A stretch of 64,000 nucleotides of DNA from Porphyromonadaceae bacterium (GTDB lineage: Bacteria > Bacteroidota > Bacteroidia > Bacteroidales > Dysgonomonadaceae): NCBI GenBank assembly GCA_021372865.1, contig JAJFTO010000004.1:62001-126000 (forward strand), written 5' to 3'. Shown here in pieces: positions 7,442 to 64,000 of this stretch. The notes beneath the pieces are model-generated. The model was given only the letters and a program-made list of their open reading frames with translations. It was not told the DNA's origin and did no database searches. The number at the start of each line of letters is the position of its first letter. Positions within the stretch are counted from its first letter, which is position 1. A program made the position numbers and the translations under genes.

Positions 7442-8239
7442 ATGATGGATAAAAGTGTTCAACTAAAAGAAGCGGTGAAGCAAAAATATGGAGAAATTGT
7501 TTTGCTAAAAAAGGACGCCTCCTGCTGTGCTTCGCCTTGTTGTTGCGCCGGAGGTAATGGCACAATGAATGAAGACTACAGCGCTGTGGACGGATACGTT
7601 GCCGATGCGGACCTGGGTCTGGGGTGCGGACTTCCTACTCAGTTTGCAAATATTAAAAAAGGAGATACCGTTTTGGACTTGGGATCAGGAGCAGGGAATG
7701 ACTGTTTTGTCGCTCGTGCTGAAGTGGGTGAATCGGGGAAAGTGATTGGCGTTGACTTTACTCCGGCAATGGTTGACAAGGCGCGTGAAAATGCCGCGAA
7801 AAGAGGATTTAAAAACGTTGAATTTCGTGAAGGTGATATTGAAAATTTACCCGTTGAAAATAACTCTGTGGATGTCGTTATCAGCAATTGTGTACTCAAT
7901 TTACTTCCCGCCAAGGATAGAATATTTCACGAAATATACCGGGTGTTAAAGCCTGAGGGCCATTTTTGTATTTCAGACATCGTGTTGCAGGGCGAACTTC
8001 CACAGGAATTGTCGCGTGCGGTAGAGATGTATGTCGGCTGTGTTGCCGGAGCCATACCTCAGGAAGAATACATCGCGGAAATATCGAAAGCAAAATTTCA
8101 GAAAATTGAAATCAACCGCAGGAAGAAGGTGGACCTCCCCGATGAACTGATTTTGGAGTATCTGGATCAGGATTCTTTGCACGCATTCAAATCGGGAGGA
8201 ACTGGAATCTTTTCAATCACTGTAAGCGCAAAAAAATAG
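7442..8239 (+). CDS. arsM: Arsenite S-adenosylmethionine methyltransferase
   Basis: Methylates As(III) stepwise to methyl- and dimethyl-arsenicals using SAM. The SAM-binding glycine loop VLDLGSGAGND begins near residue 77. The As-binding cysteines expected in ArsM are present at LGLGC, ISNCVLNL and MYVGCVAG, and there is an N-terminal Cys cluster (SCCASPCCC). The frame can start at 7421 (overlapping the arsA stop by 16 bases) or at 7442/7445. I prefer 7442, which gives MMDKSVQLKEAVKQKYGEI, the usual distance to the conserved helix. It is translationally close to arsA and to arsC (4-base gap), so clearly part of the operon. Confidence 0.94.
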   Translation: MMDKSVQLKEAVKQKYGEIVLLKKDASCCASPCCCAGGNGTMNEDYSAVDGYVADADLGLGCGLPTQFANIKKGDTVLDLGSGAGNDCFVARAEVGESGKVIGVDFTPAMVDKARENAAKRGFKNVEFREGDIENLPVENNSVDVVISNCVLNLLPAKDRIFHEIYRVLKPEGHFCISDIVLQGELPQELSRAVEMYVGCVAGAIPQEEYIAEISKAKFQKIEINRRKKVDLPDELILEYLDQDSLHAFKSGGTGIFSITVSAKK

Positions 8240-8243
8240 AGAG

Positions 8244-8669
8244 ATGAAAAAACGAATCTTGATTCTGTGTACGGGAAATAGCTGCCGTAGCCAGATGGCA
8301 CACGGATTTCTGCAGTCGTTCGATCCCGAACTGGACGTACATTCTGCCGGTACCCATGCCAGCGGGAGGTTAAATCACAAGGCGGTGGAAGTAATGAAAG
8401 AAGCGGGAATCGATATTTCACATCACACCTCCGACCCTGTGGATAAATACCTGGATGAAGAGTGGGATTATGTGATTACGGTCTGTGGTGGCGCCAACGA
8501 GAGCTGTCCTGCTTTCAATGGAAAAGTAAAACACCGGTTACACATTGGATTCGATGATCCCTCGGCTGCTACAGGAACACCTGAATTTATTCAATCGGAA
8601 TATATCCGTGTGCGTGACGAGATAAAAGAGGGGTTTCTCGATTTTTACCTGAAACATATTCGTGAATAA
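8244..8669 (+). CDS. arsC: Arsenate reductase, thioredoxin-coupled (LMW phosphatase fold)
   Basis: Reduces arsenate to arsenite, feeding the export and methylation steps. The phosphatase-type loop CTGNSCRS is at residues 9-16 with nucleophile Cys9. The redox pair Cys81 and Cys88 (VCGGANESCPAF) matches the Cys10-Cys82-Cys89 relay of the Staphylococcus pI258 enzyme. This places it in the thioredoxin-linked class, not the glutaredoxin class. Length 141 aa is normal. Confidence 0.96.
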   Translation: MKKRILILCTGNSCRSQMAHGFLQSFDPELDVHSAGTHASGRLNHKAVEVMKEAGIDISHHTSDPVDKYLDEEWDYVITVCGGANESCPAFNGKVKHRLHIGFDDPSAATGTPEFIQSEYIRVRDEIKEGFLDFYLKHIRE

Positions 8670-15655: not shown

Positions 15656-17056
15656 ATGAAATACAGAATTGAAAAAGATACTTTGGGAGAGGTGAAAGTA
15701 CCCGCCGACAAGTTGTGGGGTGCGCAGACAGAACGGTCGCGCAACAATTTTAAAATCGGACCCCCTGCCTCCATGCCGATAGAGATCATCCATGGCTTTG
15801 CATACCTGAAAAAAGGTGCAGCTTATGCGAATCATAAGCTGGGAGTCCTCTCCCGTGAAAAAAGAGATATGATCGCACGGGTGTGCGACGAGATTCTGGA
15901 AGGGAAACATGATGATCAGTTTCCGCTGGTGATCTGGCAGACCGGTTCGGGAACACAGAGCAACATGAACCTGAACGAAGTGATTGCCAACCGGGCTCAT
16001 CAGCTTGCCGGAAAGGTGATCGGAGAAGGAGAGAGGACCCTGCATCCCAATGATGATGCGAACAGGTCACAGTCTTCCAATGATACTTTTCCCACCGCCA
16101 TGTATATTGCCTGTTATAAAAAAGTGGTCGAAGTTACCTTGCCGGGATTAAGACAGTTGCAGCGTTCGCTGGCCGCCAAATCAGAAGAAATGGTCCATGT
16201 GGTAAAGATTGGCCGCACCCATCTGATGGATGCGACGCCGCTTACATTGGGACAGGAATTCAGCGGCTACGTGGCTCAGCTTGATCATGGTATAAAAGCG
16301 ATTGAAAATACATTGCCTCATCTCTCGGAGCTGGCCCTCGGTGGTACTGCTGTAGGCACGGGACTGAATGCTCCCAGGGATTATGATGTGATGGTGGCAA
16401 AATATATTTCCGAATTTACCGGCCTTCCTTTCGTCACCGCCGGAAACAAATTTGAAGCACTGGCTGCCCACGATGCCCTCGTGGAGACGCATGGCGCACT
16501 GAAACAGGTGGCCGTGTCACTCAATAAGATTGCTAATGATATCCGCCTGCTGGCATCAGGCCCCAGAAGTGGTATTGGAGAGATCATCATTCCAGCCAAC
16601 GAACCGGGATCGTCCATTATGCCCGGAAAAGTAAATCCCACCCAGGCGGAGGCACTCACCATGGTATGTGCCCAGGTGATGGGGAACGACGTGTCGATCG
16701 CTGTAGGGGGTATGCAGGGCCATTTCGAGTTGAATGTATTTAAGCCAATGATGGCAGCCAATTTTCTGCAAAGCGCACAGCTCTTGGGTGATGCGGCACG
16801 GTCGTTCGATATACATTGTGTTTCCGGTATCGAACCCAACAGACCCCGTATCAAAGAACTGCTGGATAACTCGCTGATGCTGGTGACAGCACTCAATACA
16901 AAGATCGGTTATTACAAGGCAGCTGAGATCGCACATGCGGCCCACAAAAACGGTACCACCCTCAGGGAAGAAGCGGTGCGGTTGGGATACGTGACGCCGG
17001 AGGAGTTTGATGAATGGGTGAAACCGGAAGAGATGACAGGTTCCATGGATCATTGA
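15656..17056 (+). CDS. fumC: Fumarate hydratase class II
   Basis: Iron-independent fumarase interconverting fumarate and malate. The superfamily signature [13 protein letters not shown] lies near residue 318 and is followed by [15 protein letters not shown], which fits FumC better than aspartate ammonia-lyase. [10 protein letters not shown] and [20 protein letters not shown] are the two other active-site blocks. I start at the ATG at 15656 ([16 protein letters not shown], 466 aa); an upstream GTG at 15623 would lie within the promoter. It lies upstream of a class I fumarase, separated by a terminator. Confidence 0.95.
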
Positions 17057-17101
17057 CAATCATGGGGATAACCAGCCGCTACTTCTTACGGCGTGAATAT
17101 G

Positions 17102-43158: not shown

Positions 43159-44943
43159 TCAATAATTTACACTTTCTAAATCCAATAATTTAGTATTGAC
43201 TTTGCCTTTCATAATCACGTATTTACCGGGTTGAATGTGAAAATCAGTGAGATTTTTCTTCCTGTAAGCGTACAACTTATATTTATTTCCCTTATTTCGT
43301 TCAATAATGGAATAATTACCCTCGTCCCAATTTGTAAGTAAAATGCTCATTTTATTTTTTGTTGTATGGTCAAGTTCCGTGATAACTCCCTCCTGCCGAC
43401 CATCCCATTGATTCTTGCTATGCTTTACATTTGGGAGTATGGTTAGATGAAGTATTCCATCAATTTCTTTTAGAAAATAAAGTCCAGTCCCATTGTATTT
43501 TACCAACGATGAATTACCAAGCCCAATAACTTCTTTTACATTCTCGCTTACATTTAGTGGATTCCATTTCGTTATGTCACCTGAATAATAAAGCCTGTTC
43601 AAGTCTGAATAAATGGCCACGTTCCTTTCTTTTGAGATGGCGTAATAATCCGTAACCTGCTCATTCGGGGAATCCATCTCATAATTGGTGTAGAGCCTTG
43701 TCGATTTGAAAATTTCATTTGCGATGATGAAACTAGCAGCTTTACCCGGAGTGGAGGTTACACTTAGTACATGCGATCCGGATGAGTATGGACCATATAC
43801 ACTAAGCGAATAGGTCCACATTTGCGCTGCTTGTACTCCGAGCGCTCGAAAATATTGAGCCTGTATTGGATATAAATACCTGCTCTGATTAAAAAAAGTC
43901 TCGAATTCATAGACAACCTTCGCTTTGTTCTTAAAAGCATCCGATAAAGCCCAGCCATAGCCAGTCACGTCGTTATAATAGGTTTTGAACCACTCGGAGA
44001 AGTCCGTTTCTGTCAAATCTTTCGGATTGCGCCCATAATTTTCACCTACCAAGTCTTGTCCAGGATAATTACACATCGCCACGACTTCAACATGAGAGCT
44101 TGCAACAGCACGGAAAACATCTTCGTGTTCGCGCATATAGCGGTGCCAGTTTAGATTCCAGACAATTGGGTGTCTTGCTCCCGAGTCACGAATCAATTTA
44201 TGCATCGTGTTGATGTAGTTACGCACAAGTTCCTCACGATATTCTAGATACGTTCGTTGATCTTCTTTTTTCCCTTTACCTTCTGCCCAAGATAAAAAGT
44301 CCTTGAAATAACCTGTATTTTTAATCTCATCGTAGGAATATACACTTGGTTCGTTCATGATCTCCCACATTGCAATATGCTTCGTCTCTTTATAGGTCAC
44401 ATTAAGATACGGGTTACTACGGTTTAGTAATTGCGTAATATAATTCTTCGTTTTTTCTACAACCTTCTTGTTGTGAATCCACTCTTCCCTATTTAACCCT
44501 ACCCACATTGAGTTTGAGACATGTGCACTGCCCATGTGATTAATGAAAGCGAGTGTGACATAAATACCTCTTTCTGAGGCTTCTGCAATCATGTAGTCGA
44601 GTATATCGAGATAGATCGTTTCTACAATATTTCCCTCATGATCTACAAAATCTGCCGGTGTAAGGTGGCATCGTATTGAGTTGACGTGCATCAGTTCTAA
44701 TTCCGTAAAACTTTCATCCGTCACTTTTTTCAATTCATTACTTGATAGTTGTACTCCAATTTTTTGCAGACGCTTATATTCCCAACTTAGATTCGGTTGG
44801 AAGTTGACTCCAAAAATTGCCATTTCTTTTCCGTCTGGCATATAAAGCTTCCCGTTTTTTGTATACGTATAATCTTGAGAAACGACTGGCTGTATACAAA
44901 GAAAAAAGACGAACAGAGAAAAGATAAATTTAAAATTGTTCAT
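43159..44943 (-). CDS. Secreted clan GH-A glycosidase (GH5-like), 594 aa
   Basis: Exported protein with a signal peptide (residues 1-22, ends PVVSQ). A TIM barrel holds the acid/base Glu198 in MWEIMNEPSV and the candidate nucleophile Glu346 in KVVYEFETF. About 180 C-terminal residues look like beta-rich accessory modules (LYTNYEMDSPNEQ to the end). The start NGKLYMPDGKEMAIFGVNFQPNLSW is typical of cellulase-fold enzymes. I cannot name the GH family or subfamily; GH5 or a related clan-A family is likely. Last gene of the leftward six-gene operon. Confidence 0.75.
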   Translation of the reverse strand: MNNFKFIFSLFVFFLCIQPVVSQDYTYTKNGKLYMPDGKEMAIFGVNFQPNLSWEYKRLQKIGVQLSSNELKKVTDESFTELELMHVNSIRCHLTPADFVDHEGNIVETIYLDILDYMIAEASERGIYVTLAFINHMGSAHVSNSMWVGLNREEWIHNKKVVEKTKNYITQLLNRSNPYLNVTYKETKHIAMWEIMNEPSVYSYDEIKNTGYFKDFLSWAEGKGKKEDQRTYLEYREELVRNYINTMHKLIRDSGARHPIVWNLNWHRYMREHEDVFRAVASSHVEVVAMCNYPGQDLVGENYGRNPKDLTETDFSEWFKTYYNDVTGYGWALSDAFKNKAKVVYEFETFFNQSRYLYPIQAQYFRALGVQAAQMWTYSLSVYGPYSSGSHVLSVTSTPGKAASFIIANEIFKSTRLYTNYEMDSPNEQVTDYYAISKERNVAIYSDLNRLYYSGDITKWNPLNVSENVKEVIGLGNSSLVKYNGTGLYFLKEIDGILHLTILPNVKHSKNQWDGRQEGVITELDHTTKNKMSILLTNWDEGNYSIIERNKGNKYKLYAYRKKNLTDFHIQPGKYVIMKGKVNTKLLDLESVNY

Positions 44944-44992
44944 TGGGAATATGAAATAAACGTGAACGAATTATTTGACGTAAGAACCTGTA

Positions 44993-49520
<4,528 letters not shown>

Positions 49521-49533
49521 CTGAATGTTTTGA

Positions 49534-51558
49534 TTAGTCCCATATAATAACGAGCGTGTCTTCGCTGTCGATATGGATTGTCTTGTCGTTTAGCTTACTT
49601 TTTTTATTTGAATACAAAATGCGAGCGTTCTTGTAGGCCGAAAGACCGGTCAACCTGATTGTTACATTCTCCTTGTTCTTGTTGATAATAACAGAGATTA
49701 CCTTATTCCCAGACTTCAGGTTTTTCATCAGCACACCTTCCTGAAACGATTCGAATCCAATTCTATCAGATGTGTTGAAGTATGGATCCAAGAATTCAAG
49801 GAGAGGGCGATAATCATTTGCCTTTCTCGCACCCAATCCTATTAAAGAAGGCACCCATACCACTTTACCCTTTCCGAAGTTATTTATAATTCCAACCATT
49901 TCACCTGCCTTGTCACCGATGTTTTTCCCTTTTTCCACATCGATTATCCCTTTTAGCGCATGCGTAGAAAGTGTGTTGTCTTCCGTTATTTTCAAATCAA
50001 ATAGATCTTTCTCAAAAATGAATTCCGAAACACTTCCTCCAAAAAGGTCCGCTAACGGAAAGCTGTTCACCATCTTCGACATGGCTTTTTCATCGTAGAA
50101 AGCGGTAAGACCATCGACGATCAATGTACCTCCGTTTCGTACAAAATTCCGAAAATGATCATAATAAGACTCAGGTATACTTATTTGATGAGCCAGTATG
50201 ACGGTCTGTCCCGAATAATCTTTCTCCGAGAAGGAGAATTCATTGAATTCCTTGAACGTTGGCTGCAAACCTATCTGAGATAACGCTTCAAAATAGCTGA
50301 TGCCCGACTTCATTACAGCTCCGGGTTCCCGGATTTCGTATTTGTTATTTTTAATATCAGGAGCCATCATTTGCTCAACCCAAATCGATTCTCTATTATA
50401 AAGGATATGGATGTTGCTATGGATCGGTTTGGCCACACGGAATAATTTCTCGTTTTCGTTGATTAGATGAGCAATTTTCCCTGTCTCGATCAGCCTCTCT
50501 GTTGGCCTATTCTGAAAGTCAATCATCGCCCATTCACCGGCTTCCGTACCGGACATTCTTGGATTTAAACACCAGAAAATCGCCCCTTTGCTCCCGGTAC
50601 CGACAACAATCCACAGCCACTGGGCAATCTCTTCTTTGGTGGGACAAAACGGTTCGTAACCGCTGTAAATATTGTTGCCACCTTGAAGTTCTGTCATCAG
50701 CCACGGAATATTTCCTGCACCCGATAGAATAATTTCACTGTTCGCCGACATTGCCAATGCATATTTATTCCGCGTGAAATATCCGAAATGCCAACTGGCA
50801 TGAGCCGAACCGCCCAAGCTAGTCAAGAACCTGCTCCAAGCCGGAAAATCATATTGCGCAACGTTGTCAAAGATCTGATGCGTATTCACATGAACAGGAT
50901 TCCGGGCGTCGTATTTTTTAATCTCGCTCGTCAGCCAATTTAGATACCATGTATTGTAATAAAGTATAAACTCTTGCTTATCGAAAGAAAGATAGGGAGT
51001 ATCCTTTAGTGGATGTATTGTTGCAATCTGTTGACTGTTTTTCCATTCAGCAAAGATCTCTTTTCCAAGAGGATTTTGTACACTACCCCCTCCCGGTTCA
51101 TTAATCGGGACCCAACCGTACAACGACTTGAATTTTTTGAAGTGCGTCACTACAACTTTTATGTATTCAGCGACCCGTTCGAGGTGTTCCCTGTCGCTAG
51201 GATACTTGAAGCCTCCCACATCGGTAAAATCCGTTGCAGGAAAAAGATTCGCGTAAATCTTCACATTGTATTTTTCTCCGTACTGGAACGCTTTGTCGAA
51301 CAGTGAAAAATCCCAATTTCCGTTCTCGTCTTTCATATAGTTTTCGAACATCCTTATACGAGTCAGGTTCATATTGTTGTCGCTAAGCGTTTTGAACCAA
51401 CTCTCCACATTCTTGTCAGATTGTCCGGGCTCAATGAAGATTTCAGCACCAAACATCAAGGCATCCTCTTCACTCATCTGGGCACTTACAACCGATGAGG
51501 CCAACAGGAACAGTACACACAGGATTATTCTACTACTATTTTCAAAAAATATTCTCAT
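49534..51558 (-). CDS. Secreted GH42-like glycosidase (clan GH-A with trimerisation-type domain)
   Basis: A 674-aa exported enzyme (signal peptide MRIFFENSSRIILCVLFLLA, ends VVSAQ). Barrel with acid/base Glu154 in WVPINEPGGG and nucleophile Glu290 in PWLMTELQGG. Then an alpha/beta, glutamine-amidotransferase-like domain (about 440-590: FRNFVRNGGTLIVDGLTAFYDE) like the trimerisation domain of GH42, and a small C-terminal beta domain. GH42, GH164 (beta-mannosidase) and GH165 share this architecture, so the substrate sugar is open. The start at 51558 is chosen for the signal peptide; the longer open frame to 51696 has no support. Confidence 0.75.
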   Translation of the reverse strand: MRIFFENSSRIILCVLFLLASSVVSAQMSEEDALMFGAEIFIEPGQSDKNVESWFKTLSDNNMNLTRIRMFENYMKDENGNWDFSLFDKAFQYGEKYNVKIYANLFPATDFTDVGGFKYPSDREHLERVAEYIKVVVTHFKKFKSLYGWVPINEPGGGSVQNPLGKEIFAEWKNSQQIATIHPLKDTPYLSFDKQEFILYYNTWYLNWLTSEIKKYDARNPVHVNTHQIFDNVAQYDFPAWSRFLTSLGGSAHASWHFGYFTRNKYALAMSANSEIILSGAGNIPWLMTELQGGNNIYSGYEPFCPTKEEIAQWLWIVVGTGSKGAIFWCLNPRMSGTEAGEWAMIDFQNRPTERLIETGKIAHLINENEKLFRVAKPIHSNIHILYNRESIWVEQMMAPDIKNNKYEIREPGAVMKSGISYFEALSQIGLQPTFKEFNEFSFSEKDYSGQTVILAHQISIPESYYDHFRNFVRNGGTLIVDGLTAFYDEKAMSKMVNSFPLADLFGGSVSEFIFEKDLFDLKITEDNTLSTHALKGIIDVEKGKNIGDKAGEMVGIINNFGKGKVVWVPSLIGLGARKANDYRPLLEFLDPYFNTSDRIGFESFQEGVLMKNLKSGNKVISVIINKNKENVTIRLTGLSAYKNARILYSNKKSKLNDKTIHIDSEDTLVIIWD

Positions 51559-51656
51559 GTTTGTTTTATTGTGAATCGATATATGTAAAATTTTGACAAT
51601 CATCATGGTAAATCGGGAAAGTGTTTTTTTACATTTTATTTCCAACAGAAGAGCAA

Positions 51657-52910
51657 TTAAATCAACTTTATATAATACGCTACAATGTCTTTCCATTTGT
51701 AGTATGGAGCCATGTTGGTTTTAACGGGTATATGTACTTCACGTTCGTTATGTAATATTTTCACGATAATTTCACCTTCACTATTTTTATAAAAGATCCA
51801 TTGAATGTTCGCACCCATCGGAGCTACCTTATAATCGTTCCACACTTCATAAACTTTTTGAGGATCCGGTTCCGTGATGCTGGCCTCTTTTATGCCCAAC
51901 AAGGCTGCAAATGGAATAATACCTTCTGCGTGGGCAAAGCGTAAGTTCGCTGAAATATCCTTCTTTTCAATTGCAGCTTGCGAAGTTTCAATGAAGTTTT
52001 TCAACATCGGCTTTGCTATTGTGATGGCTATGTTGTTATTTATTCCGGAAGGTCCTTTACGCAGATATTGATTGAGGTTTTGAATTTGCCACAGCGCGAA
52101 AATTTCATCTTCTGTAAAAACATCATAGAGAGAGATATTGATACCCGAAGCTTCCAAGATAATAACAGCTGACCAAAAGTTTGTCATGAAGTTTTTCTTG
52201 TCACCCAACCGCGCGGGAACGCTTGACTTGAAAAGTGATGAGATGAAACGATCCGTAGAAAGTATTTTATCCGTAAAGCTATCGCGAATATCTCTCCATG
52301 GACCCTCTTCGTAATAATCCCGGTATTCTTTGCTGTAAAAGTTTAGATAATAATTGTTATAATCGCTTGATTCCATGTCAATTGAAATAGATGGATTCAT
52401 CTCTTTCATTTCCAGGCAAAAATAACTCATGCTTAAGATGCAACGAGGGACTAAAGTGGATTTTGCATCTATCACACACTTTTCATCATTGAATATTTCC
52501 GGATAATTATTAAACATTCGTTTGGCAATTCCTTTCTGTTCTTCTGCTCCTATCGATGATAAGTCACCATATCGCTTATACATGTAACCATTGATCTCGT
52601 CAATTTTTTGTTTTACCTCTTTCCCTTTTTCCGTTAGCAAATTATCATTGTCAGCATCTTTAAAAATTGAAGCCAAGTCAGGAAAAAGAGTTTCAGAGGT
52701 ATGAACTCGAGAGCCATGCCTGCCTACATGGTTTACATAAAAGGGAACATATCCCGTTGGAGGTGATGTATACTCCTGATGCTGGAATTTGTATGCCATG
52801 GATGTGCCGGCGCTATTTGAAATAGTTTTTACAACATCGTCACGTTTACTTTGTGAGATGACCTGTAATGGAATAATACCTAACAGTAAATAAATGATTA
52901 TCTTCTTCAT
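51657..52910 (-). CDS. Secreted histidine phosphatase, MINPP/phytase-like
   Basis: A 417-aa exported enzyme (signal peptide 1-20, ends QVISQ) of the branch 2 histidine phosphatase superfamily. The phospho-accepting motif is RHGSR at residues 64-68. The distal proton-donor motif is HAE at 327-329 instead of the HD of common acid phosphatases; HAE is the mark of multiple inositol polyphosphate phosphatases, which degrade phytate. It lies inside an operon otherwise made of glycosidases, so its natural substrate may be a phosphate group carried by, or co-occurring with, the target glycan. The start at 52910 (MKKIIIYLLL) is chosen over the longer open frame. Confidence 0.82.
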   Translation of the reverse strand: MKKIIIYLLLGIIPLQVISQSKRDDVVKTISNSAGTSMAYKFQHQEYTSPPTGYVPFYVNHVGRHGSRVHTSETLFPDLASIFKDADNDNLLTEKGKEVKQKIDEINGYMYKRYGDLSSIGAEEQKGIAKRMFNNYPEIFNDEKCVIDAKSTLVPRCILSMSYFCLEMKEMNPSISIDMESSDYNNYYLNFYSKEYRDYYEEGPWRDIRDSFTDKILSTDRFISSLFKSSVPARLGDKKNFMTNFWSAVIILEASGINISLYDVFTEDEIFALWQIQNLNQYLRKGPSGINNNIAITIAKPMLKNFIETSQAAIEKKDISANLRFAHAEGIIPFAALLGIKEASITEPDPQKVYEVWNDYKVAPMGANIQWIFYKNSEGEIIVKILHNEREVHIPVKTNMAPYYKWKDIVAYYIKLI

Positions 52911-53015
52911 TGTTCTTTTACTTTGATGATTCACTGTTACACTTGCGTATTGAAATGGTTTTATAAAATCGATCATAATTTTCAATTTTTCTCAATCGGT
53001 TCGATTAGTGAATTA

Positions 53016-54404
53016 TTAATATGTGAAAACTTTCATTTCGTAACGCTTCAATTCAACAATTTTTTGTGAATTTTCAACACCTTCTATCTTCACTTTCACA
53101 TGCTTTGGAGTACTCTGTTTATTGATCAGCATAATGTGTTTTGTTGAAGTCAATGATTCTACAAATTCGTTGGAACTGATACTTTTTACAATTACTGTCC
53201 CTGTCGGAAAGTAGTTCTTGAAATTCTTGAATACCTCAAGGGTTGGGAGTGGCTTTGCTCCATTATTGGAATCAATATGCGTATACATTCCCTCTGGAGC
53301 AATTTGTTCGGGATCCGTTCTTTCCTTTCCTTCGTCCTCCGGTTGCCATTTATCCACAAACTCAGCCCCTCCTAATAAATGCCACCGAAACATCGATGCC
53401 AGTCCTGCAGCTTCAAGATCTTCTGGAAAATGTCCTTTCAAACATTGGTTGTCCACTACCCATACCGGGACATTTGGAAATTTTGCCGATAAAAGCTCGC
53501 GACATTGACGATGAATTACTTCATTAAATTGTGTATAGCGTAAAATTGAGTCCATGTGATATGGAGACATATCATTGTTTTCCTTCAAATTCCGATCTAT
53601 TGCAAAGAAATCAAGTTTTCTGGCTTTGTTTATAAATACTTTCAATGCTTCTTTGTCTGTTGAGCTCATTTCTCCGGACCATAAAGCCATGTTTTTTCCT
53701 TTTGGGGATGACTCAACATGCACAAAAGGTCCTCCCACCTTTATTTTAGGATCTACATTTTTTATCGAGTCGTACGCAATATTATACAAATCGGCATAGT
53801 CTTCAAGTAGCCATCGTCCCAACTCTTTAGACCAATACCCCCTAGTCTCACTCCAGACATTTACGGCAAATATATCGATTCCTTTCTTTTTGTAATGCCG
53901 TATTATATCAGCAGACATGTGACCAAACTCTTCGTACATATCAACTCTTGGAGCGGCATCGACACCTTTCGAAGCGTCATCCCGTCTCATCCATTCCGGA
54001 CAACGACAAAGAGTAAGTACTATTTTTCTCCCCAGACGGTAATACAATTCAACCCTAGAATCCAAGTACTTAAAGTTGTATACATTCTTTGAAGGATTTG
54101 TGTTTCCGGCTCCCCAGTCCATTGTAAATTGAGCCAAACAATCGGTATATTGTTCAAGATAACTTTCTGCGCGTGCAACCGCCTCTGTATATTGAGGATT
54201 TGAAAAGGAACGGTGCGTAAGTGTTGTACTCAACAGCAACTTGCTTGTCATTATTTGTTCTCCAGGATACACAATTACTTCAACATCTTTTCCCAAAGAG
54301 TCTTGATTATCGTCGATGCTATCCTCACTTGCGCTACAGCTCATTGTTAAAAAAAGAGCTAAAGACAAAATCATCATTGAAATAAGTATACTATCGTATT
54401 TCAT
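53016..54404 (-). CDS. Lipoprotein with GH39-like TIM-barrel fold, unusual catalytic positions
   Basis: A 462-aa lipoprotein (lipobox LFLTMSC). The barrel sequence (QFTMDWGAGNTNPS..., VLTLCRCPEWMRRDD, IFAVNVWSETRGYW, KVGGPFV) resembles GH39-like members of clan GH-A. The place where GH39 has the acid/base NEP motif reads VWSETRG (a Glu is present, but not Asn-Glu-Pro). The strand expected to carry the nucleophile reads VPVWVVDNQCLKG, with Asp but no Glu. It may be a diverged enzyme family or a non-catalytic binding protein. First gene of the leftward operon. The start at 54404 is preferred over an upstream TTG at 54416. Confidence 0.65.
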   Translation of the reverse strand: MKYDSILISMMILSLALFLTMSCSASEDSIDDNQDSLGKDVEVIVYPGEQIMTSKLLLSTTLTHRSFSNPQYTEAVARAESYLEQYTDCLAQFTMDWGAGNTNPSKNVYNFKYLDSRVELYYRLGRKIVLTLCRCPEWMRRDDASKGVDAAPRVDMYEEFGHMSADIIRHYKKKGIDIFAVNVWSETRGYWSKELGRWLLEDYADLYNIAYDSIKNVDPKIKVGGPFVHVESSPKGKNMALWSGEMSSTDKEALKVFINKARKLDFFAIDRNLKENNDMSPYHMDSILRYTQFNEVIHRQCRELLSAKFPNVPVWVVDNQCLKGHFPEDLEAAGLASMFRWHLLGGAEFVDKWQPEDEGKERTDPEQIAPEGMYTHIDSNNGAKPLPTLEVFKNFKNYFPTGTVIVKSISSNEFVESLTSTKHIMLINKQSTPKHVKVKIEGVENSQKIVELKRYEMKVFTY

Positions 54405-54427
54405 TATTTTGCACAATTATTGTTGTA

Positions 54428-54435
54428 CAAAAATA
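54428..54435 (-). promoter_or_regulatory. -7 element of the six-gene glycosidase operon
   Basis: Minus-strand TATTTTTG (plus CAAAAATA), an exact match to TAnnTTTG, 23 bases upstream of the first start codon at 54404. No clear -33 TTTG. Presumably controlled by the neighbouring hybrid regulator. Confidence 0.5.
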
Positions 54436-54580
54436 CATTCCAGTAATTTGACAATTTAAGAGGATATCATCATTTTTTGTAATAATTTAATCAATAATTA
54501 TATATATGTGTCTTGCATTTCTTTTGATTCTTGAGAAATTTAAACTTTCGGTGATACTCGTGTTTTGTCATGTTTTTTGG

Positions 54581-54605
54581 CTTTTGAAAATGGATTTTTC
54601 AAAAG
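54581..54605. repeat. AT-rich 10-bp inverted repeat between the regulator and the glycosidase operon
   Basis: CTTTTGAAAA and TTTTCAAAAG around a 5-base loop, perfect. No T-run follows on either strand. It could be a weak terminator for the regulator gene or a binding site upstream of the operon promoter. The rest of the 258-base gap (54405-54662) shows nothing else clear apart from the -7 box. Confidence 0.45.
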
Positions 54606-54662
54606 TGAGAAATAAACTATTTTGAGAAAACTTGTTTTAGCAAAAAATAAAAAAAGCATAAA

Positions 54663-57600
54663 TCACTTTTCTTTCTCTTCAATATACTCTGTAGGAGCAA
54701 CTCCATAGTATTCACGAAAACATTTTGTAAAATATGAGTGAGAGTTAAACCCTACTTTATACATTATTTCCGAAACCCTTAAATCACTCTGTAGCAAATA
54801 TTGTCTGGCTCTTTTTAATCGCACTCTACGAATGAACTCATTGATTGTTTCTCCTGTTAGAGCTTTTATTTTTCTATATATTTGCTGATAAGAATAATTG
54901 GTCTTTTCACATAATTCTTTGGTCCCAAAATCAGGATCTTCCATATTTTTTTCAATAATATCCATTAAAGAGTTAATGAACTGATCATTTTCCGACTCAA
55001 TCATAATTTCTGCAGGCTCGGTTAAAATTTTCTGCCTGAAAGTTTGCTGCATTCGTTCTCTGAGTTCGATCATTTTGTCGATGCGAACTCGTAGTGTTTT
55101 GATACTAAATGGTTTGTATATATAGCTGTCGGCACCTCTGTTATACCCTTCGCTGCGACTCATTTCATCGTTTTTTGCAGTAAGCAATATGACGGGAATG
55201 TGCGAAGTAATGATATTTTCCTTTATACGGCTACAAACTTCAAATCCATCCATTCCAGGCATCATGATGTCGGATATGACTAAATCGGGAAGGTTTTCAT
55301 TGACCAATTGTAACCCTTTCTCCCCATTATTTGCGGTAATAACTTCGTAATGATCCTCAAGATTAATTTTTAAAAATTCAATCATGTCGTCATTATCTTC
55401 AATGACAAGGACTTTGTTTTTTAAAAAATGATCGGAAGAATCCATTTCAGCATCAAAGAAATTTTCAGTTTTTTCATTTTGAGCATGAGCAGGTAACAGA
55501 TCGGTTGGAATTGTAAATTCAAACTCTGAACCCTTGCCCAACTGACTAACAAGGGATATCTCGCCACCATGTAACTGGACAAACTCTTTTGTTAGATATA
55601 AACCTATTCCGGTTCCATACGTGTTATCGAATCCTTTAACGGGTGCTTGATAGAAGTTGTCAAAAATTTGCTTTTTATCTTCTTCATTCACTCCAATACC
55701 TGAATCGCGGACAGATACGACGAGATATCTTTCTTTTTCATTTATTGAGACTTGGATATGGCCATTGTTGGGCGTATATTTTATTGCATTTGAGATAAGG
55801 TTGTATAGTATTTTTTCTATTTTGTCAGAGTCAAAGAATATATATTTGGTTTCTACATGACTATCGAAAATATAGGTCATGTTTCTACGGCTTGCGTAAT
55901 CACCAAATCCATCAAAAATTCTTCGGATGAATGAAATGAATTCACCATGTTTCAATATTAGGGTCATTTTTTCGTTTTCTACTTTGCGTACATCCATTAT
56001 CTGATTTATCAGTCTTAATAATCTTTCAGCATTTTGCTTCATAATATCAAGTTGGATACGCTGCTTGTCACTATTTAGACTCTCTTTTAAGCTTTCGATG
56101 GGTCCTAGTATGAGGGACAATGGAGTTTTAAGTTCGTGAGAAATGTTTGTGAAAAAACTCATTTTTATCCGCCCCAATTCCTCTACTCTCCCTCTTTCAA
56201 TTTTTTCCATTCTTAACTCGTTTCTTAGGGCTAATCTATTTATTGTTAATTTGTAAGTGTAGTAAAGAATGATGGATATTACAAATAATAATACTGAATA
56301 GGCCCACCATGTTTTCCACCATGGTGTTTTTATTAAAATATGTATACTAGCTACCTGATCATTCCATATTCCATCTGAATTAATGCCTTTTACCCAAAAA
56401 GTATAGTTGCCGGGTGGTAAATTCGAATAATAAACATAATTTTCTCCGGATTCTCCCACTATCATTTTCTCATCATAACCCTCTAACATGTACGCATATT
56501 TGTTGTTGGCTGAAGTTGAAAAATTCAACATAGCGAATGATAGCTTAAAAGAATTCTCTTCATGATTCAATACAATTTTTTTTGCTGAAGATAAAGATTG
56601 TCTAAATTTTTTTTGAATATCACGCGGGTTGTTTTTATTTAAGCTCTTCCCCCAAAGTTCAAGATTCGTAAGAACAACAGGAGCTTTATCCATATTTAAT
56701 ACAATTTCGCCAGGTTGAAAATAGATAACGCCTCCATTTCCTCCCAAAAGAATTGTTTCGTTCTCCATGTTGAAAAAGCTGTTGAATTCAAGTCCCATGA
56801 GGCCCACATCATCGTACAAGTCCACAATAATTTTTAGATTTTTGTCGTGGTCGAACATGATGAGCTTGTTATCTTCGCCTATCCAGAGCCTTCCTTGCAT
56901 GTCAGAAGTAAGCGTGCGAATGGAACCGGATAGGTCAGAATCGTCGTTAAATCGGGTAAACGATTCTGTTTGATCATCAAACAAACACAATCCCATATCT
57001 GTTCCAATCCAGATTTTCCCATTTATATCTGTACGAATGGAGTATATTCTGTTGCTGTTAATGCTGTTAACATTGTTATCGTCAAACTTATACTGTGTAA
57101 ATTTGTCTTTGGCTTTATCGTAACGAAATAACCCTTCGTTGATAGTTCCAATCCAGATACATCCTTTTTCATCAATATCAAAATAGGTAACATCATAATT
57201 TACGGAGGTTATTATTTTGTCAATCATTGCCGTTTTGTATTTGAAAGAGACTGGCATGTTATCTGTGGTTATCTGAGGTGAAATAAAACATATACCGCTA
57301 CTAATATTGGCCACAATGTCTCCATCTTTATCTTCTTTTAGATCGTAAATATACTTTAGTGGAATTCCATTTACATCTTTATCCAGCGAACGAAAACGGT
57401 CACTCCCGGGATCATAATAATTAACGCCATCATTCGTACCTATCCAGATGATACCTCTGCTATCCTGAAGAATCCTTTTTACAATGGGATGCGATATTCC
57501 ATCGTCCTTACCTTTGTATTTTCTTATTAGGTTTTTGTTCTTGTCATACCGTAAGATACCTTCGTTATACGTTAACCAGGATTCTGAGTTTGAGGTAACA

Positions 57601-58721
57601 AGGATATCGTTTACGCCAATCAGCTTTGTTTGGTTATTCTCGCTTGAAATGACATTCAAGAAGTTGATTGGTTTTCTTCTTTTATCAAGTATTGCAATGC
57701 CATTACTGGTGCCTAACCAGATGTTTCCGAGTTTATCTTCGTGTATGCACCAGACTGTTTCATTAGGGAGAGAGGTCTTGTCTAAGATATTGCTGTTGTG
57801 TTTTTCGAATTCTCCTGTTTTTATATTAAACAGCGATATTCCGTTTGCTGTAGCTAGAATCAAATGAGAATCATCAAATCTATTTATTGACTTTACATCA
57901 TTGTCTGATATTTCTGAATATTCCGTTCTGTAGGACTCCAGCATCCTACCACTTTCCTCATCGATAATGGTCAATCCTTGAGAGGTGGCAATATATAGCC
58001 TATCTGGCTCTTTATCTGATATATAAATATCAGATACCAATGTGTTTATGGGGTCGTGGGGCAATCCGCGTCGTACTTCAAATCGTTCAAAACTATTATC
58101 ACGTATATTCATGCGATAAAGTCCATCAAACGTTGCTATCCAAAGAAACCCATTTTTTGATTCATGCATTCCTCTTATTTCATTCGCCATTCGTTGATTT
58201 TGATCAGCAACAAACGTAAAATAACTCATGCTGTTACTTCTTTGATCTATTTTAATCAAACCCTCTAGCGTGCCAACCCAGATGATGCCATTCCTATCTT
58301 CATAAAGCGATCTGATTCGTAAATTATCCAAGAGGTGATTTGTATCGTTTGATACGTTGCAGGAGGTAAACGTGTTTTCAAGAGGATTGTATATTGAAAT
58401 TCCTTTTTCTGTTCCAATCCATAAGTCTCCAGATTTTGTTAGAAGAATGCAATTTACCCAAGATGCACTCAAGCTTGTGGAGTCTCCCGGAATATGCTTA
58501 TATACCTTAAACTCATATCCGTCGTATCGGTTAAGGCCTTCTGCCGTACCAATCCAGATAAAACCTGTCGTATCTTGCTGAATGCTTAAGACCATTTTGT
58601 TGGATAAGCCCATACCGGTTGAGATGTTTTTAAAATGCAAATTATCCCTGTTTTGCGGCAAGGCAAGTTGAGATGAAAGCAAATAAAACAGGAGGAGCAG
58701 ATTGAATCGGTTGGAATTCAT
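54663..58721 (-). CDS. Hybrid two-component system sensor/regulator (HTCS)
   Basis: A 1352-aa one-protein signalling system that senses a PUL oligosaccharide in the periplasm and activates transcription in the cytoplasm. A signal peptide is followed by a periplasmic part of 14-15 Reg_prop propeller repeats (such as GFIWIGTAEGLNRYDGYEF, GDLWIGTEKGISIYN, GIIWVGTLEGL) and a Y_Y_Y domain (about 720-790). A transmembrane helix lies at about 806-824. Next come HisKA with phospho-acceptor His862 (NISHELKTPLSL), an ATPase domain with N-box NLISNAIKYTP and GTGIGLYLTKEF, a receiver with phospho-acceptor Asp1151 (LVISDIMMPGMDG) and a C-terminal AraC-type HTH (about 1250-1350). All catalytic residues are present. 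It stands between, and probably controls, the leftward glycosidase operon and the rightward SusC pair. Confidence 0.97.
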   Translation of the reverse strand: MNSNRFNLLLLFYLLSSQLALPQNRDNLHFKNISTGMGLSNKMVLSIQQDTTGFIWIGTAEGLNRYDGYEFKVYKHIPGDSTSLSASWVNCILLTKSGDLWIGTEKGISIYNPLENTFTSCNVSNDTNHLLDNLRIRSLYEDRNGIIWVGTLEGLIKIDQRSNSMSYFTFVADQNQRMANEIRGMHESKNGFLWIATFDGLYRMNIRDNSFERFEVRRGLPHDPINTLVSDIYISDKEPDRLYIATSQGLTIIDEESGRMLESYRTEYSEISDNDVKSINRFDDSHLILATANGISLFNIKTGEFEKHNSNILDKTSLPNETVWCIHEDKLGNIWLGTSNGIAILDKRRKPINFLNVISSENNQTKLIGVNDILVTSNSESWLTYNEGILRYDKNKNLIRKYKGKDDGISHPIVKRILQDSRGIIWIGTNDGVNYYDPGSDRFRSLDKDVNGIPLKYIYDLKEDKDGDIVANISSGICFISPQITTDNMPVSFKYKTAMIDKIITSVNYDVTYFDIDEKGCIWIGTINEGLFRYDKAKDKFTQYKFDDNNVNSINSNRIYSIRTDINGKIWIGTDMGLCLFDDQTESFTRFNDDSDLSGSIRTLTSDMQGRLWIGEDNKLIMFDHDKNLKIIVDLYDDVGLMGLEFNSFFNMENETILLGGNGGVIYFQPGEIVLNMDKAPVVLTNLELWGKSLNKNNPRDIQKKFRQSLSSAKKIVLNHEENSFKLSFAMLNFSTSANNKYAYMLEGYDEKMIVGESGENYVYYSNLPPGNYTFWVKGINSDGIWNDQVASIHILIKTPWWKTWWAYSVLLFVISIILYYTYKLTINRLALRNELRMEKIERGRVEELGRIKMSFFTNISHELKTPLSLILGPIESLKESLNSDKQRIQLDIMKQNAERLLRLINQIMDVRKVENEKMTLILKHGEFISFIRRIFDGFGDYASRRNMTYIFDSHVETKYIFFDSDKIEKILYNLISNAIKYTPNNGHIQVSINEKERYLVVSVRDSGIGVNEEDKKQIFDNFYQAPVKGFDNTYGTGIGLYLTKEFVQLHGGEISLVSQLGKGSEFEFTIPTDLLPAHAQNEKTENFFDAEMDSSDHFLKNKVLVIEDNDDMIEFLKINLEDHYEVITANNGEKGLQLVNENLPDLVISDIMMPGMDGFEVCSRIKENIITSHIPVILLTAKNDEMSRSEGYNRGADSYIYKPFSIKTLRVRIDKMIELRERMQQTFRQKILTEPAEIMIESENDQFINSLMDIIEKNMEDPDFGTKELCEKTNYSYQQIYRKIKALTGETINEFIRRVRLKRARQYLLQSDLRVSEIMYKVGFNSHSYFTKCFREYYGVAPTEYIEEKEK

Positions 58722-58785
58722 GATAGACTATTTTTTATGAGATGATATCACAAGCAAAAAATTATTTCTACCTGATTATTTAATA

Positions 58786-58793
58786 CAAAAGTA
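58786..58793 (-). promoter_or_regulatory. -7 element of the HTCS gene
   Basis: Minus-strand TACTTTTG (plus CAAAAGTA), an exact TAnnTTTG match about 65 bases upstream of the HTCS start. No -33 element is apparent. It lies in a 305-base AT-rich divergent intergenic region (58722-59026) that shows no ORF and no clear inverted repeat. Confidence 0.45.
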
Positions 58794-58973
58794 CTTTTTT
58801 TGATTGCCCTATGCTATCGTTATTTTGTTAATTAATATGACATTTTTATTCTTTTCCTGGAATAAACTGTAGAGGTACTGATTTTTATCTCTTATTATTA
58901 CGTTAAAATTTGGAGTGATTAAAAAATCACAGTTTTTGATGTATTTCTAATATCTTTATTTTTTTTTCGGTTT

Positions 58974-58981
58974 TACTTTTG
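58974..58981 (+). promoter_or_regulatory. -7 element of the tandem SusC genes
   Basis: TACTTTTG, an exact TAnnTTTG match about 46 bases before the ATG at 59027. It is the divergent counterpart of the HTCS promoter and carries the same 8-base sequence. Confidence 0.5.
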
Positions 58982-59026
58982 TACCGTATCGTTTTATAAA
59001 AAATTCTTAAATTGAATATCAACAAA

Positions 59027-61867
59027 ATGAGTATGAAAAAAACAAGTAGCTATCTTATTATTAAAACAAAAAGAACAATAAAAAAGATAGTATTAGTAAT
59101 TGCAGTTCTTGCATGTTTGAACTCACTGCATGGACAAGATGCTGGAGGAAGTAATTTTGTTGTTCTCACTCGGAATAATAATTTTTCTTTACTGCCTGAC
59201 AGTGCGAGCCCTGTTATTTCACCCTCTGACAGAGAGAGTCAGGTCGTTTCAACGATCGAAGAATTAGTGACAGGTCGTGTTTCAGGGATACGGACGGTAA
59301 AATCTGACGGTTCTCCTGGAGCATCCTATAGTATGCAATTAAGAGGAGTACGAAGTTTTAGAGGTGATAATGAACCGATCTATATACTTGATGGAATAGT
59401 ACTTAACTCAGTTTGGAATGATGCATCCAACACCTTTTGGAATGATCCTGAAGATTATCAGGCAGCACACAACATTTTATCACGTATTAATCCGAATGAT
59501 ATTGCAAAAATTGAAATTTTGAAAAATGCCGATGCTACTGCAATCTATGGAAATATGGGGGCAAATGGTGTGATTCTTATAACGACAAAGAGTGGAAGCG
59601 TAAATGGTTTTCATGCAAATGTGCAAACCAATTTAGGCATCGCTACTTTTAGCCGGAAAATAGATATGCTCAGCGGAAATGATTATTTGGCGTATCAGAA
59701 CATCGTAAATCCCGGGAATGCGTTGCCCTTTCAAACTGGGGCTCCGGTTGATTGGCAAAGGGATGCCACTCGAACAGCTGTTATGCAGAATTACTATCTG
59801 GATATTGGAGGTGGTAACGATAAAATGAGATACTATATATCCATGGGATATGCAGGAAACGAAGGAATCGTGAAGGGTAGTGACATTACCCAAGCTTCTA
59901 TTCGTGTTAATCTGGACCGACTCATTGGGGGAAATTCAGTATTTGGGACAAGAATGTTATTCGGATATACGGAGAATAATATGATACAGGCTACTGCTCC
60001 TTATGGGAGTTATAGCTTGACAAAATTGATGACCAAAGCGATACCATTTGAATCTTCGGCCGATAATAATTCTATTGTGAATGAAAATCCAAGAAATTGG
60101 ATCGATGGATACGACGACAACAGTGTGCAATATTTTGCAACACCGCAAGTATATTTTACAACGAATATATTTAAATGGTTGCAATTTAAATCTGTTGCAG
60201 GAATCGATTATCGTACAAAAGAGCGTTTGCGTTGGATTGGCAATGAAATAACCAGAGGAAGAAGTGTGGAAGGAAGGGCTGGAAGGAGCAATATAAATGC
60301 TTTCACATACAATGTTGATTCGCGCTTAAACATTCGTTTTATTTCGAATAAACATTCTTTTACCGGATTAGGTGGCGTTTCTGTAAACGGAGATTTTTTA
60401 TCGAATAAAATGAACGAGGGTACAAAGTTTTTTAACCAGGATCTTCGGGGCGTAGGTATTCAGTTAGCAGAGAACATATTTCCGTATAGAAATTTGGATT
60501 GGAATAACAACTATCTATCCGGATATGTGAGCGGCACATACACATTTGACCAAAAATACACATTGAGCGCAACACTCAGAAAAGATAAAACAAGCAATTT
60601 TGATGAAAGCTGGAATGATTTAGACTATTATCCCTCTGTGGGTCTCTCATGGAATGTCATGAACGAAGACTTTTTATCGGGGCAGCAGATTGTTTCCACA
60701 CTCAATGTACGAGGTAGCTGGGGCCGTTCGGGCAAGCAGACTATACTACCCCTGGATTTATCGCGTGCATATATTACCGGTGTGAGCCCGGAATTAGAGG
60801 TAGAGAATGGAATGACAAATTATTATGACATGCGTTGGAACAATATAAATACACAGCAAAATATTGGTATTGATTTAGGATTCTCAGGCGATAAAATTAC
60901 CGCTACAATCGATTTATATAATTCTGATTCAGATGATCGGTTGCAATACTATTATCACAAAAGATTAGGTGCATATGAATCGGTATACACAAACGAAGCT
61001 TCTGTGAATAACAAAGGGATTGAAATTTTATTGAATGCGGTTCTGCTGAAGAACAGTGAAATAGAATGGAATGGGGGAGCCAGTTTTGCGTATAACCGAA
61101 ACGAGATAACGAACACAGGTGCCGATGGAGATGTGTTTGGCAGTAAAATAGGAGAATTAAATGAAAATCCTCTGGTTGTAAATATAAATAGGAAGGGGGA
61201 GCAAGTCGGTGCTTTTTGGGGGTATAAAACGCAAGGCATCGTAGAAAACCAACATCTCTTATTTGTTCCGCCTTTTTATAATGTCAGATTACAGCAGGGT
61301 GATTTAAAATTTATTGATACGAATGGTGATGGAAATACAACGGAGGAAGACTACACAATCATTGGAAACCCGATACCTGAGTATGTATTTGGATTTAATA
61401 CCGATGTGCGTTATAAAAATTTTACGGTTCAACTGATATTTGAAGGTGCAGCAAAATATGATATTGCTAATTTAAATCTCTTGGATAATTTGTATGTTTC
61501 AGGAAACGTGTGGAATATACGTGAAAACACGTTTAAGGATGCTTATTCGGGATCTAATACGAATGGAAAATCTCCACGTTTCAACGCGGTAGGAGTTAAA
61601 GAATTCACTTCGCGCGTTATTGAAGATGGTAGCTATGTACGACTTTCTGATTTCATTGTTGGGTATAATTTACAACTTCCAATGATAAAATGGATAAACT
61701 CTGTGGACTTGACATTTGCTGCGAGGAATTTATTTCTGATAACCAAGTATTCGGGTTATGACCCAAATGTGAATAGTTATAGCTACAATCTTTCTTCTAT
61801 TGGTATCGATAACGCTGCTTATCCAAGTGCCCGATCTTTCCTGTTAGGAGTGAAAGTAAAATTCTAA
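59027..61867 (+). CDS. SusC-like outer membrane receptor lacking the N-terminal extension
   Basis: A 946-aa SusC/RagA-family barrel protein. After a signal segment (about residues 10-36, ends LNSLHGQ) there is no carboxypeptidase-regulatory-like Ig domain and no EVVVVGYG-type TonB-box stretch. About 40 nondescript residues lead straight into the plug (VTGRVSGIRTVKSDGSPGA, QLRGVRSFRGDNEPIYILDGIVLNS, IEILKNADATAIYGNMGANGVILITTK). The barrel is complete and ends SFLLGVKVKF. The start at 59027 (MSMKK) or 59033 is chosen; the TTG at 59012 is unlikely. A second, full-length SusC gene follows at 14 bases with no SusD between, which is unusual. The two may form a paired receptor or serve alternative ligands. 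Confidence 0.9.
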   Translation: MSMKKTSSYLIIKTKRTIKKIVLVIAVLACLNSLHGQDAGGSNFVVLTRNNNFSLLPDSASPVISPSDRESQVVSTIEELVTGRVSGIRTVKSDGSPGASYSMQLRGVRSFRGDNEPIYILDGIVLNSVWNDASNTFWNDPEDYQAAHNILSRINPNDIAKIEILKNADATAIYGNMGANGVILITTKSGSVNGFHANVQTNLGIATFSRKIDMLSGNDYLAYQNIVNPGNALPFQTGAPVDWQRDATRTAVMQNYYLDIGGGNDKMRYYISMGYAGNEGIVKGSDITQASIRVNLDRLIGGNSVFGTRMLFGYTENNMIQATAPYGSYSLTKLMTKAIPFESSADNNSIVNENPRNWIDGYDDNSVQYFATPQVYFTTNIFKWLQFKSVAGIDYRTKERLRWIGNEITRGRSVEGRAGRSNINAFTYNVDSRLNIRFISNKHSFTGLGGVSVNGDFLSNKMNEGTKFFNQDLRGVGIQLAENIFPYRNLDWNNNYLSGYVSGTYTFDQKYTLSATLRKDKTSNFDESWNDLDYYPSVGLSWNVMNEDFLSGQQIVSTLNVRGSWGRSGKQTILPLDLSRAYITGVSPELEVENGMTNYYDMRWNNINTQQNIGIDLGFSGDKITATIDLYNSDSDDRLQYYYHKRLGAYESVYTNEASVNNKGIEILLNAVLLKNSEIEWNGGASFAYNRNEITNTGADGDVFGSKIGELNENPLVVNINRKGEQVGAFWGYKTQGIVENQHLLFVPPFYNVRLQQGDLKFIDTNGDGNTTEEDYTIIGNPIPEYVFGFNTDVRYKNFTVQLIFEGAAKYDIANLNLLDNLYVSGNVWNIRENTFKDAYSGSNTNGKSPRFNAVGVKEFTSRVIEDGSYVRLSDFIVGYNLQLPMIKWINSVDLTFAARNLFLITKYSGYDPNVNSYSYNLSSIGIDNAAYPSARSFLLGVKVKF

Positions 61868-61881
61868 TCTAGAAAAATAGT

Positions 61882-64000
61882 ATGAACAACATGAGAAATT
61901 ATATATATAAAATTGTACTTAGTGCATTCTGTGTATCTCTGTTAAGTATAATGAACGTCGTTGCACAGACAACTGTTTCCGGAAAAGTTACAGATACCAG
62001 TAATTTACCGCTGGTTGGGGCAACAGTTACAGTAACAGGCACGACTATTGGAACAGTGGTCGATCTTGATGGCAATTATACGATTACGATTCCAGCCGGA
62101 GCAGAGAAAGAATTACAATTTAGTTTCATTGGATATACATCCGTTACCAAAAAGGTTACTGGCAGCAGGCTGGATGTGGTGCTGCAAGATGATAATGTTT
62201 TGCTGGAAGATGTTGTGGTTGTAGGATACGGCACAATGCGCAAGAGTGATATTACGGGTTCAGTTGCCAGTGTTAAGTTGAGTGACACGGAAGTTAATCA
62301 GGTGGCTACTTTTGATAAGCTTCTCCAGGGAAAAGCGGCAGGCGTGCAAGTTGTTACGGGAAACTCCGCTCCGGGTGGGGCTGTAAGTGTGCAGATTAGG
62401 GGTACTACCTCATTTAATAGTAGCGGAGAACCGTTGTATGTAGTGGATGGTATTATATTGAATTCTGTTTCTCAGGACGTTAGAAACCCAATCGGAAGTT
62501 CAGGTCAAGAAGCGCAAAATGCACTTACCTCGATCAATCCACAAGATATTGCAAGCATTGAGATCTTAAAAGATGCATCTGCAACCGCTATTTATGGATC
62601 GTTAGGTGCAAACGGTGTTATTCTTATTACGACAAAAAATGGAGATTCAGACAAACCCAGAATAGAGTGGACAACGAGTCTTGAATTGGCCAATGCGAGT
62701 AAAAAGATTCCTGTTCTTGATTTTAATGGATTTTTGGAATATGCAGATGCAATTGGGTATACTATTGAGGATAGAGATTTCTTGCAAGCGATCGACTGGC
62801 AGGATTATACCATGCGCACAAGTATAAGCAACACGAACAGGTTGACAATAAGTGGGCGTGGGGAAAAGTCCCGGTATTACATTGCAGGAGGGTATCTTAC
62901 CAACCAGGGTATCTTAAAAAATACGGATGTACAACAAGGAGACGTACGCATGAATTTTGATGCGGATGTTGCAAAATTTCTGAAAGTAGGGACCAAATTT
63001 ACCTTTACAAAAAGAGTCAATAACATGACTCAGGGAACGGAGCCGGGAGGTACACAAAATGCAACCAGGGCAACAAACATGATGCGGCAAATGCTTGGTT
63101 CCAAGCCTTATTTATTGACAGACTTAGCTGAATCGTATGACGATGAAGCAATAAGGGGGACCGATATTTGGTTGCAAAATTATGATGACATAAGTAAAGA
63201 GAATCGTATCAATACGGTTGCATATGCGGATGTCACATTTACCAAAGGAATGAGCTTCAAAACAACAGCAGGTATCGATTTTAGAGACAAATCTCGTACC
63301 AGGTGGTATGGACAATATATTGATAATGCACGCAACGGTAGAGCGGGAATTGCAGAACTGAATGCACTCCGTTGGAATATTGACAATACATTGAATTTTG
63401 ATCGTGATTTTGCAAAATACCATCGTATCAACGTTATGGTTGGTATGTCATTAAGTAGCAATTTAAACCAAAATATCACCGTAGAGGCCAACGACTTTCC
63501 CGATCATGAATTCAGGGCGGGAGGCATTAAAACAGCGCGCAGTATTTCTCCAGGTTATAGCGAAGATAAAAGTGCGTTGGTTTCCTATTACACGCGTGGA
63601 ATCTACAGTTTAAAAGATCGTTACATATTGACTGCTACATACCGGGCTGATGGAAGTAGCAAGTTTAGTCCTGGAAATAAATATAGCTTCTTCCCTTCGT
63701 TTGCCTTTGCTTGGAGAATGAACGATGAGCCTTTTCTGAAAGAAGTATCATTTCTTACAAATTTAAAACTAAGGCTGGGTTGGGGACAGGTAGGAAATCA
63801 AGCGTTATCTCCGTATCAAACATTGACAACCTATAGCAGCATTAAAATGGCTGATCCTAACTCTAACTATGATTTATCAGATAATGGTAGTTTTTTAATT
63901 GGAGTTAAACCGGCTATTCTTGCAAACAAACAATTGCGTTGGGAAACATCGGAACAGACGAATGTCGGTCTTGATGTTGGATTATTCAAAAACAGGATAA
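61882..64000 (+). CDS. SusC-like TonB-dependent transporter, 3' end outside the window
   Basis: The frame runs from the ATG at 61882 to the right edge without a stop (706 codons visible). The signal peptide ends near MNVVAQTT. A carboxypeptidase-regulatory-like domain (VSGKVTDTSNLPLVGATVTVTG), the TonB-box region LLEDVVVVGYGTMRKSDITGSVASV and the plug (AGVQVVTGNSAPGGAVSVQIRG, EPLYVVDGIILNS) are all canonical. Roughly the last 300 residues of the barrel are expected beyond the edge. Its plug resembles that of the preceding short receptor (ILNS after the DGI motif; IYG-LGANGVILITTK), suggesting an old duplication. A SusD partner is expected just outside the window. Confidence 0.95.
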   Translation, partial: MNNMRNYIYKIVLSAFCVSLLSIMNVVAQTTVSGKVTDTSNLPLVGATVTVTGTTIGTVVDLDGNYTITIPAGAEKELQFSFIGYTSVTKKVTGSRLDVVLQDDNVLLEDVVVVGYGTMRKSDITGSVASVKLSDTEVNQVATFDKLLQGKAAGVQVVTGNSAPGGAVSVQIRGTTSFNSSGEPLYVVDGIILNSVSQDVRNPIGSSGQEAQNALTSINPQDIASIEILKDASATAIYGSLGANGVILITTKNGDSDKPRIEWTTSLELANASKKIPVLDFNGFLEYADAIGYTIEDRDFLQAIDWQDYTMRTSISNTNRLTISGRGEKSRYYIAGGYLTNQGILKNTDVQQGDVRMNFDADVAKFLKVGTKFTFTKRVNNMTQGTEPGGTQNATRATNMMRQMLGSKPYLLTDLAESYDDEAIRGTDIWLQNYDDISKENRINTVAYADVTFTKGMSFKTTAGIDFRDKSRTRWYGQYIDNARNGRAGIAELNALRWNIDNTLNFDRDFAKYHRINVMVGMSLSSNLNQNITVEANDFPDHEFRAGGIKTARSISPGYSEDKSALVSYYTRGIYSLKDRYILTATYRADGSSKFSPGNKYSFFPSFAFAWRMNDEPFLKEVSFLTNLKLRLGWGQVGNQALSPYQTLTTYSSIKMADPNSNYDLSDNGSFLIGVKPAILANKQLRWETSEQTNVGLDVGLFKNRI

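Follow-up and report, generated by a model that had tools for sequence, protein, structure and literature searches.

The stretch of DNA analysed here (the window, 64,000 nucleotides, bases 62001–126000 of contig C13 in a draft genome of 2.72 Mb that is 86% complete) carries most of a cluster of 13 genes over 28.4 kb, in which glycosidases of beta-mannan type and a SusC/SusD pair lie together with phosphatases of three unrelated superfamilies. We tentatively regard the cluster, at somewhat short of an even chance, as an HTCS-regulated PUL for a beta-mannan-type glycan that bears beta-galactosyl units and phosphate esters. The original prediction, a beta-galactose- or beta-mannose-containing glycan carrying or accompanying phosphate, is strengthened by a GH164 enzyme, two GH5 mannanase-like enzymes, a LacZ and two further phosphatases that lie beyond the window.

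Extent and layout of the cluster

Six leftward genes, an HTCS gene and divergent tandem SusC genes had been predicted from 43159 to 64000, and all were found there on the expected strands. The boundary did not hold, as the cluster extends some 7.6 kb beyond position 64000, where the window stops, to about 71573, taking in the remainder of SusC2, SusD, a BACON/GLUG lipoprotein, an alkaline phosphatase and a metallophosphoesterase (Table 1). Glycoside hydrolases thus share the locus with a dedicated regulator, as in a PUL, and SusC2 (TIGR04056, 825 bits) forms a SusC/SusD pair with the adjacent SusD. SusC1 has no SusD directly after it and is without the N-terminal carboxypeptidase-like domain present in SusC2.

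Table 1. Genes of the cluster in window coordinates; those beyond 64000 were read on locus L009 (window position = L009 position + 60999).
Gene	Position	Strand	Evidence
g1, secreted GH5-like enzyme	43159..44943	-	phmmer 8gf3 E 1.8e-9; two-sequence profile 8gf3 E 3.4e-16
g2, GH2 LacZ-type beta-galactosidase	44993..48100	-	NCBIfam NF052611 Bga2A; GH2 Pfam domains
g3, GH5-type lipoprotein, ManDH5-related	48105..49520	-	profile against 9gmj E 5e-51
g4, GH164 beta-mannosidase, secreted	49534..51561	-	phmmer 6t5o E 2.9e-199
g5, MINPP-like histidine phosphatase (branch 2)	51657..52910	-	phmmer 4fdt E 3e-75; PF00328
g6, GH39-like lipoprotein	53016..54401	-	PF01229 E 1.8e-6; profile matches GH39 xylosidases and PslG
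g7, HTCS regulator	54663..58721	-	Pfam: Reg_prop/Y_Y_Y sensor, kinase, receiver, AraC-type HTH
g8, SusC1, SusC-like TonB-dependent transporter	59036..61867	+	TIGR04056 487 bits; Plug and barrel only
g9, SusC2, second SusC-like transporter	61882..65028 (window part ends 64000)	+	
SusD	65043–66734	+	PF07980/PF14322
BACON/GLUG lipoprotein	66813–69173	+	
Alkaline phosphatase	69234–70379	+	PF00245
Metallophosphoesterase	70548–71573	+	PF00149

Intergenic gaps within each arm are 4–168 bp, apart from 261 bp beside the HTCS gene; from HTCS through g6, g5, g4, g3 and g2 to g1 they measure 261, 105, 95, 13, 4 and 49 bp. Such short gaps are only suggestive of co-induction by a glycan. We infer both co-transcription and control by the HTCS; the best local alignments between the stretches preceding g6 and SusC1, made to find a shared HTCS-type motif, did not surpass shuffled sequence (P 0.91 and 0.59), and promoter and terminator scans returned matches at chance level only. 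Mis-assembly of the locus is unlikely, because the order of all 13 genes is conserved, with 99–100% protein identity, in the assembly of Proteiniphilum sp. UBA4977.

Glycosidases of beta-mannan type

The gene that the original prediction called GH42-like proved to be a different enzyme. Its Pfam matches to GH42 are weak, and phmmer instead aligned g4 full length (residues 28–674) with Bs164 (PDB 6t5o), the motifs INEP and MTELQGG falling on the catalytic residues Glu160 and Glu297 of Bs164 (PMC7105311) with both glutamates kept. Judged by this similarity and these residues, g4 is a GH164 beta-mannosidase. For g3 the Pfam GH5 match was modest; a nine-sequence profile found PDB 9gmj, by its title ManDH5, a GH5 beta-mannanase of Dictyoglomus, a relationship for which the title of 9gpa also serves as evidence, and E192 and E298 are invariant across nine homologues. 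Similarity to characterised mannanases and the two catalytic glutamates together mark g3 as a putative GH5 beta-mannanase. A fold search with the predicted model, of moderate quality (mean pLDDT 60.5), likewise placed beta-mannanases nearest, which supports the sequence-based result but does not carry it. The product of g1 matched no Pfam or NCBIfam family; it too is closest to GH5 beta-mannanases, with an NE acid/base and a candidate strand-7 Glu, its similarity being weaker than that of g3. The LacZ-type enzyme g2 scored 1060 bits against the Bga2A model, above the equivalog cut-off of 999.

Read by eye, four proteins bear lipoprotein-type signals (g3, g6, SusD and the BACON/GLUG protein); the enzymes other than the lipoproteins g3 and g6 have ordinary signal peptides. 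The signal of g6, which we read as LTMSC, was missed by a simple pattern search. With a Pfam match barely above cut-off, g6 is a remote relative of GH39 and departs from that family, which has a catalytic Glu nucleophile and an NE acid/base, at both sites: alignment with two homologues showed Asp in place of Glu at the nucleophile position (VVDNQ versus WSED/WAEW) and SE in place of NE at the acid/base (WSE versus WNE). The protein may bind rather than cut, as a former enzyme turned surface binding protein. Its structure prediction had a mean pLDDT of 48 and was left out of the fold search.

Phosphatases and the location of the phosphate

Three of the 13 genes encode phosphatases. Both diagnostic motifs of histidine phosphatase branch 2 are intact in g5 (RHGSR at 64, for RHGxR, and HAE at 327), which shares them and its subfamily with the Bacteroides thetaiotaomicron MINPP (PDB 4fdt) and, unlike that protein, is encoded within a putative PUL operon. 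The metallophosphoesterase has DTQ at the place where DxH is usual. The assembly holds 13 genes of these superfamilies (an alkaline phosphatase on contig C1 is interrupted by a stop), so that 0.14 would be expected in a span of 28.4 kb where 3 were observed, giving a Poisson P of about 4e-4, calculated after the cluster had been seen. More than one phosphatase within 15 kb was found at one of the 14 SusD neighbourhoods of the genome, solely the present one.

We tentatively place the phosphate on the glycan itself. It is rather unlikely that the locus is instead a beta-mannan PUL with an unphosphorylated glycan that collects its phosphorus from a second compound, an ester such as the phytate of seed material. 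A separate ester would suit g5, which is closest to the phytase-type MINPP of Bacteroides and is the sole PF00328 match in an own-genome scan of the assembly; it counts against our reading that the known substrates of MINPPs are inositol phosphates rather than sugar phosphates. It would also suit the purple acid phosphatase-like proteins of a related Flavisolibacter locus and the occurrence of the core enzymes elsewhere without phosphatases (see below). Against this, two unrelated ligands would be required under one HTCS and one SusD, and the sulfatases beside related SusCD pairs would be left unexplained.

Less probable still is an ordinary plant galactomannan or glucomannan PUL with incidental phosphatases: PULs with GH164, GH5 and GH2 have been proposed to target dietary beta-mannan (PMC7105311), but phosphatases of three folds are improbable by chance, and plain galactomannan is disfavoured because Pfam found no alpha-galactosidase among the 13 genes. 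In Flavobacterium, PusCD loci pair SusCD-like proteins with genes for a PhoA-type phosphatase or a phosphodiesterase and respond to phosphate depletion (PMC8115612). That the cluster is such a phosphate utilisation system (PUS), serving phosphorus supply with accessory glycosidases, is the most doubtful reading. SusCD beside a PhoA-type phosphatase and a phosphoesterase is PUS anatomy, but the Flavobacterium loci are without CAZymes and here an HTCS accompanies glycosidase-family genes (GH164, GH2, two GH5-type and GH39-like g6), which apart from g6 show canonical catalytic residues or pass family cut-offs.

For the phosphorylated, beta-galactosyl-bearing glycan that we prefer, the sequences would suggest the following localisation, order of steps, ligand and regulation. 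Capture would fall to lipoproteins at the surface, namely SusD, the BACON/GLUG protein and, as a likely binder, g6, with g3 cleaving the glycan at the cell surface and SusC/SusD importing the charged pieces. The MINPP-like, alkaline and metallo-type phosphatases would then strip phosphate in the periplasm, probably post-import; there g1 would cut further, LacZ would take off beta-galactose, GH164 would take mannose from the ends and the HTCS would sense a product.

Relatives of the enzyme core and of the transporter pair

PULs with GH164, GH5 and GH2 genes and SusC/SusD have been described in Capnocytophaga and Alistipes (Armstrong and Davies, PMC7105311), and these components are common to the window locus. 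The Capnocytophaga loci that we examined also carry an HTCS; g3 is 55–57% and GH2 57–58% identical to theirs, and GH164 73% (C. catalasegens) or 45% (G1198). In contrast, the window locus has three phosphatases, the GH39-like lipoprotein and a different SusCD, whereas the Capnocytophaga and Alistipes PULs have GH16 genes, a SusCD from another clade and, as far as we saw, no phosphatases. The original view that the enzyme set matches no PUL that can be named has accordingly to be narrowed. GH164 PULs and PUS each hold one half of the locus and neither holds both; it is the combination for which we found no description. A search of the open-licence literature for PULs with phosphatases or for phosphorylated glycans returned nothing beyond PUS, and no PUL built around phosphate removal was found described there.

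Homologues of g3 are rare. Among 393 genomes of the order g3 occurs in three others, and among 395 across the phylum in no further one; it is also present in 4 of 20 Capnocytophaga, one Porphyromonadaceae MAG and one Flavisolibacter MAG. In Capnocytophaga and two other Bacteroidota genomes (G157 and G264) the g3/GH164/GH2 core sits with a SusCD of another clade, accompanied by GH16 in Capnocytophaga and G157. Those stretches of these core loci that were read, in which the Pfam scan covered part of the unnamed ORFs, showed no phosphatase, so phosphate would seem unneeded for the core substrate. The phosphatase split, 2 of 2 loci against 0 of 6, gave a Fisher P of 0.036, on a small set of relatives with some short contigs, in which four related Capnocytophaga are counted and the loci are not phylogenetically independent. 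Among the GH2, g3 and GH164 genes of G264 (L063), positions 13002–14210 and 15769–17058 encode proteins of 402 and 429 aa with no Pfam match.

The Flavisolibacter locus combines g3, GH164, GH39-like and GH2 genes with SusC and SusD proteins 45% and 38% identical to those of the window. Of its three phosphoesterases, two resemble purple acid phosphatases and one is a metallophosphatase-propeller fusion; metal-site motifs are present in them, and none was matched by a window phosphatase in tblastn or blastp. Purple acid phosphatases include phytases in other organisms. A GH164 tree places the window sequence beside Capnocytophaga catalasegens and the Porphyromonadaceae MAG and apart from Flavisolibacter, which suggests that the two loci were put together separately. 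The SusD tree joins the window to Flavisolibacter, G324 and four sulfatase-rich loci at moderate support (88/78), a clade nested within a larger one of nine that has strong support.

The four closest other relatives of the SusCD pair adjoin sulfatases, sulfate being an anionic ester as phosphate is, which favours our reading. In G704, G667, G790 and G623, of the Flavisolibacter order (L102–L109), relatives of the pair lie with several sulfatase-like genes, named from a Pfam scan of one protein and, for the rest, from a CxPSR-type motif read by eye; a GH3-like gene stands beside three of the four. At the more distant relatives in G102 and G451 neither sulfatases nor phosphatases were recognised, which weakens the proposal of a SusCD clade strictly reserved for anionic glycans. 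The locus looks like a mosaic of a beta-mannan-type core and a transporter whose nearest kin mostly accompany ester-bearing glycans.

Well-known PULs exist for sulfated glycans. A bolder form of our reading, in which the PUL is dedicated to a phosphorylated beta-mannan-type glycan, phosphatases of three folds act as sulfatases do in sulfated-glycan PULs, and such loci were assembled separately in Dysgonomonadaceae and Chitinophagaceae, is somewhat unlikely. If true, it would hint at a pool of phosphorylated beta-mannose glycans that has gone unrecognised, and provide a tractable enzyme set to identify them. The locus also places GH164 in a concrete multi-enzyme context.

A shorter second GH164 copy with an internal TGA, apparently decaying, is present in the related genomes G053 and G058/UBA4977 (L043, L045 and L036). 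On locus L014, inside a PUL, positions 6463–8337 encode a PQQ-type beta-propeller fused to a metallophosphatase.
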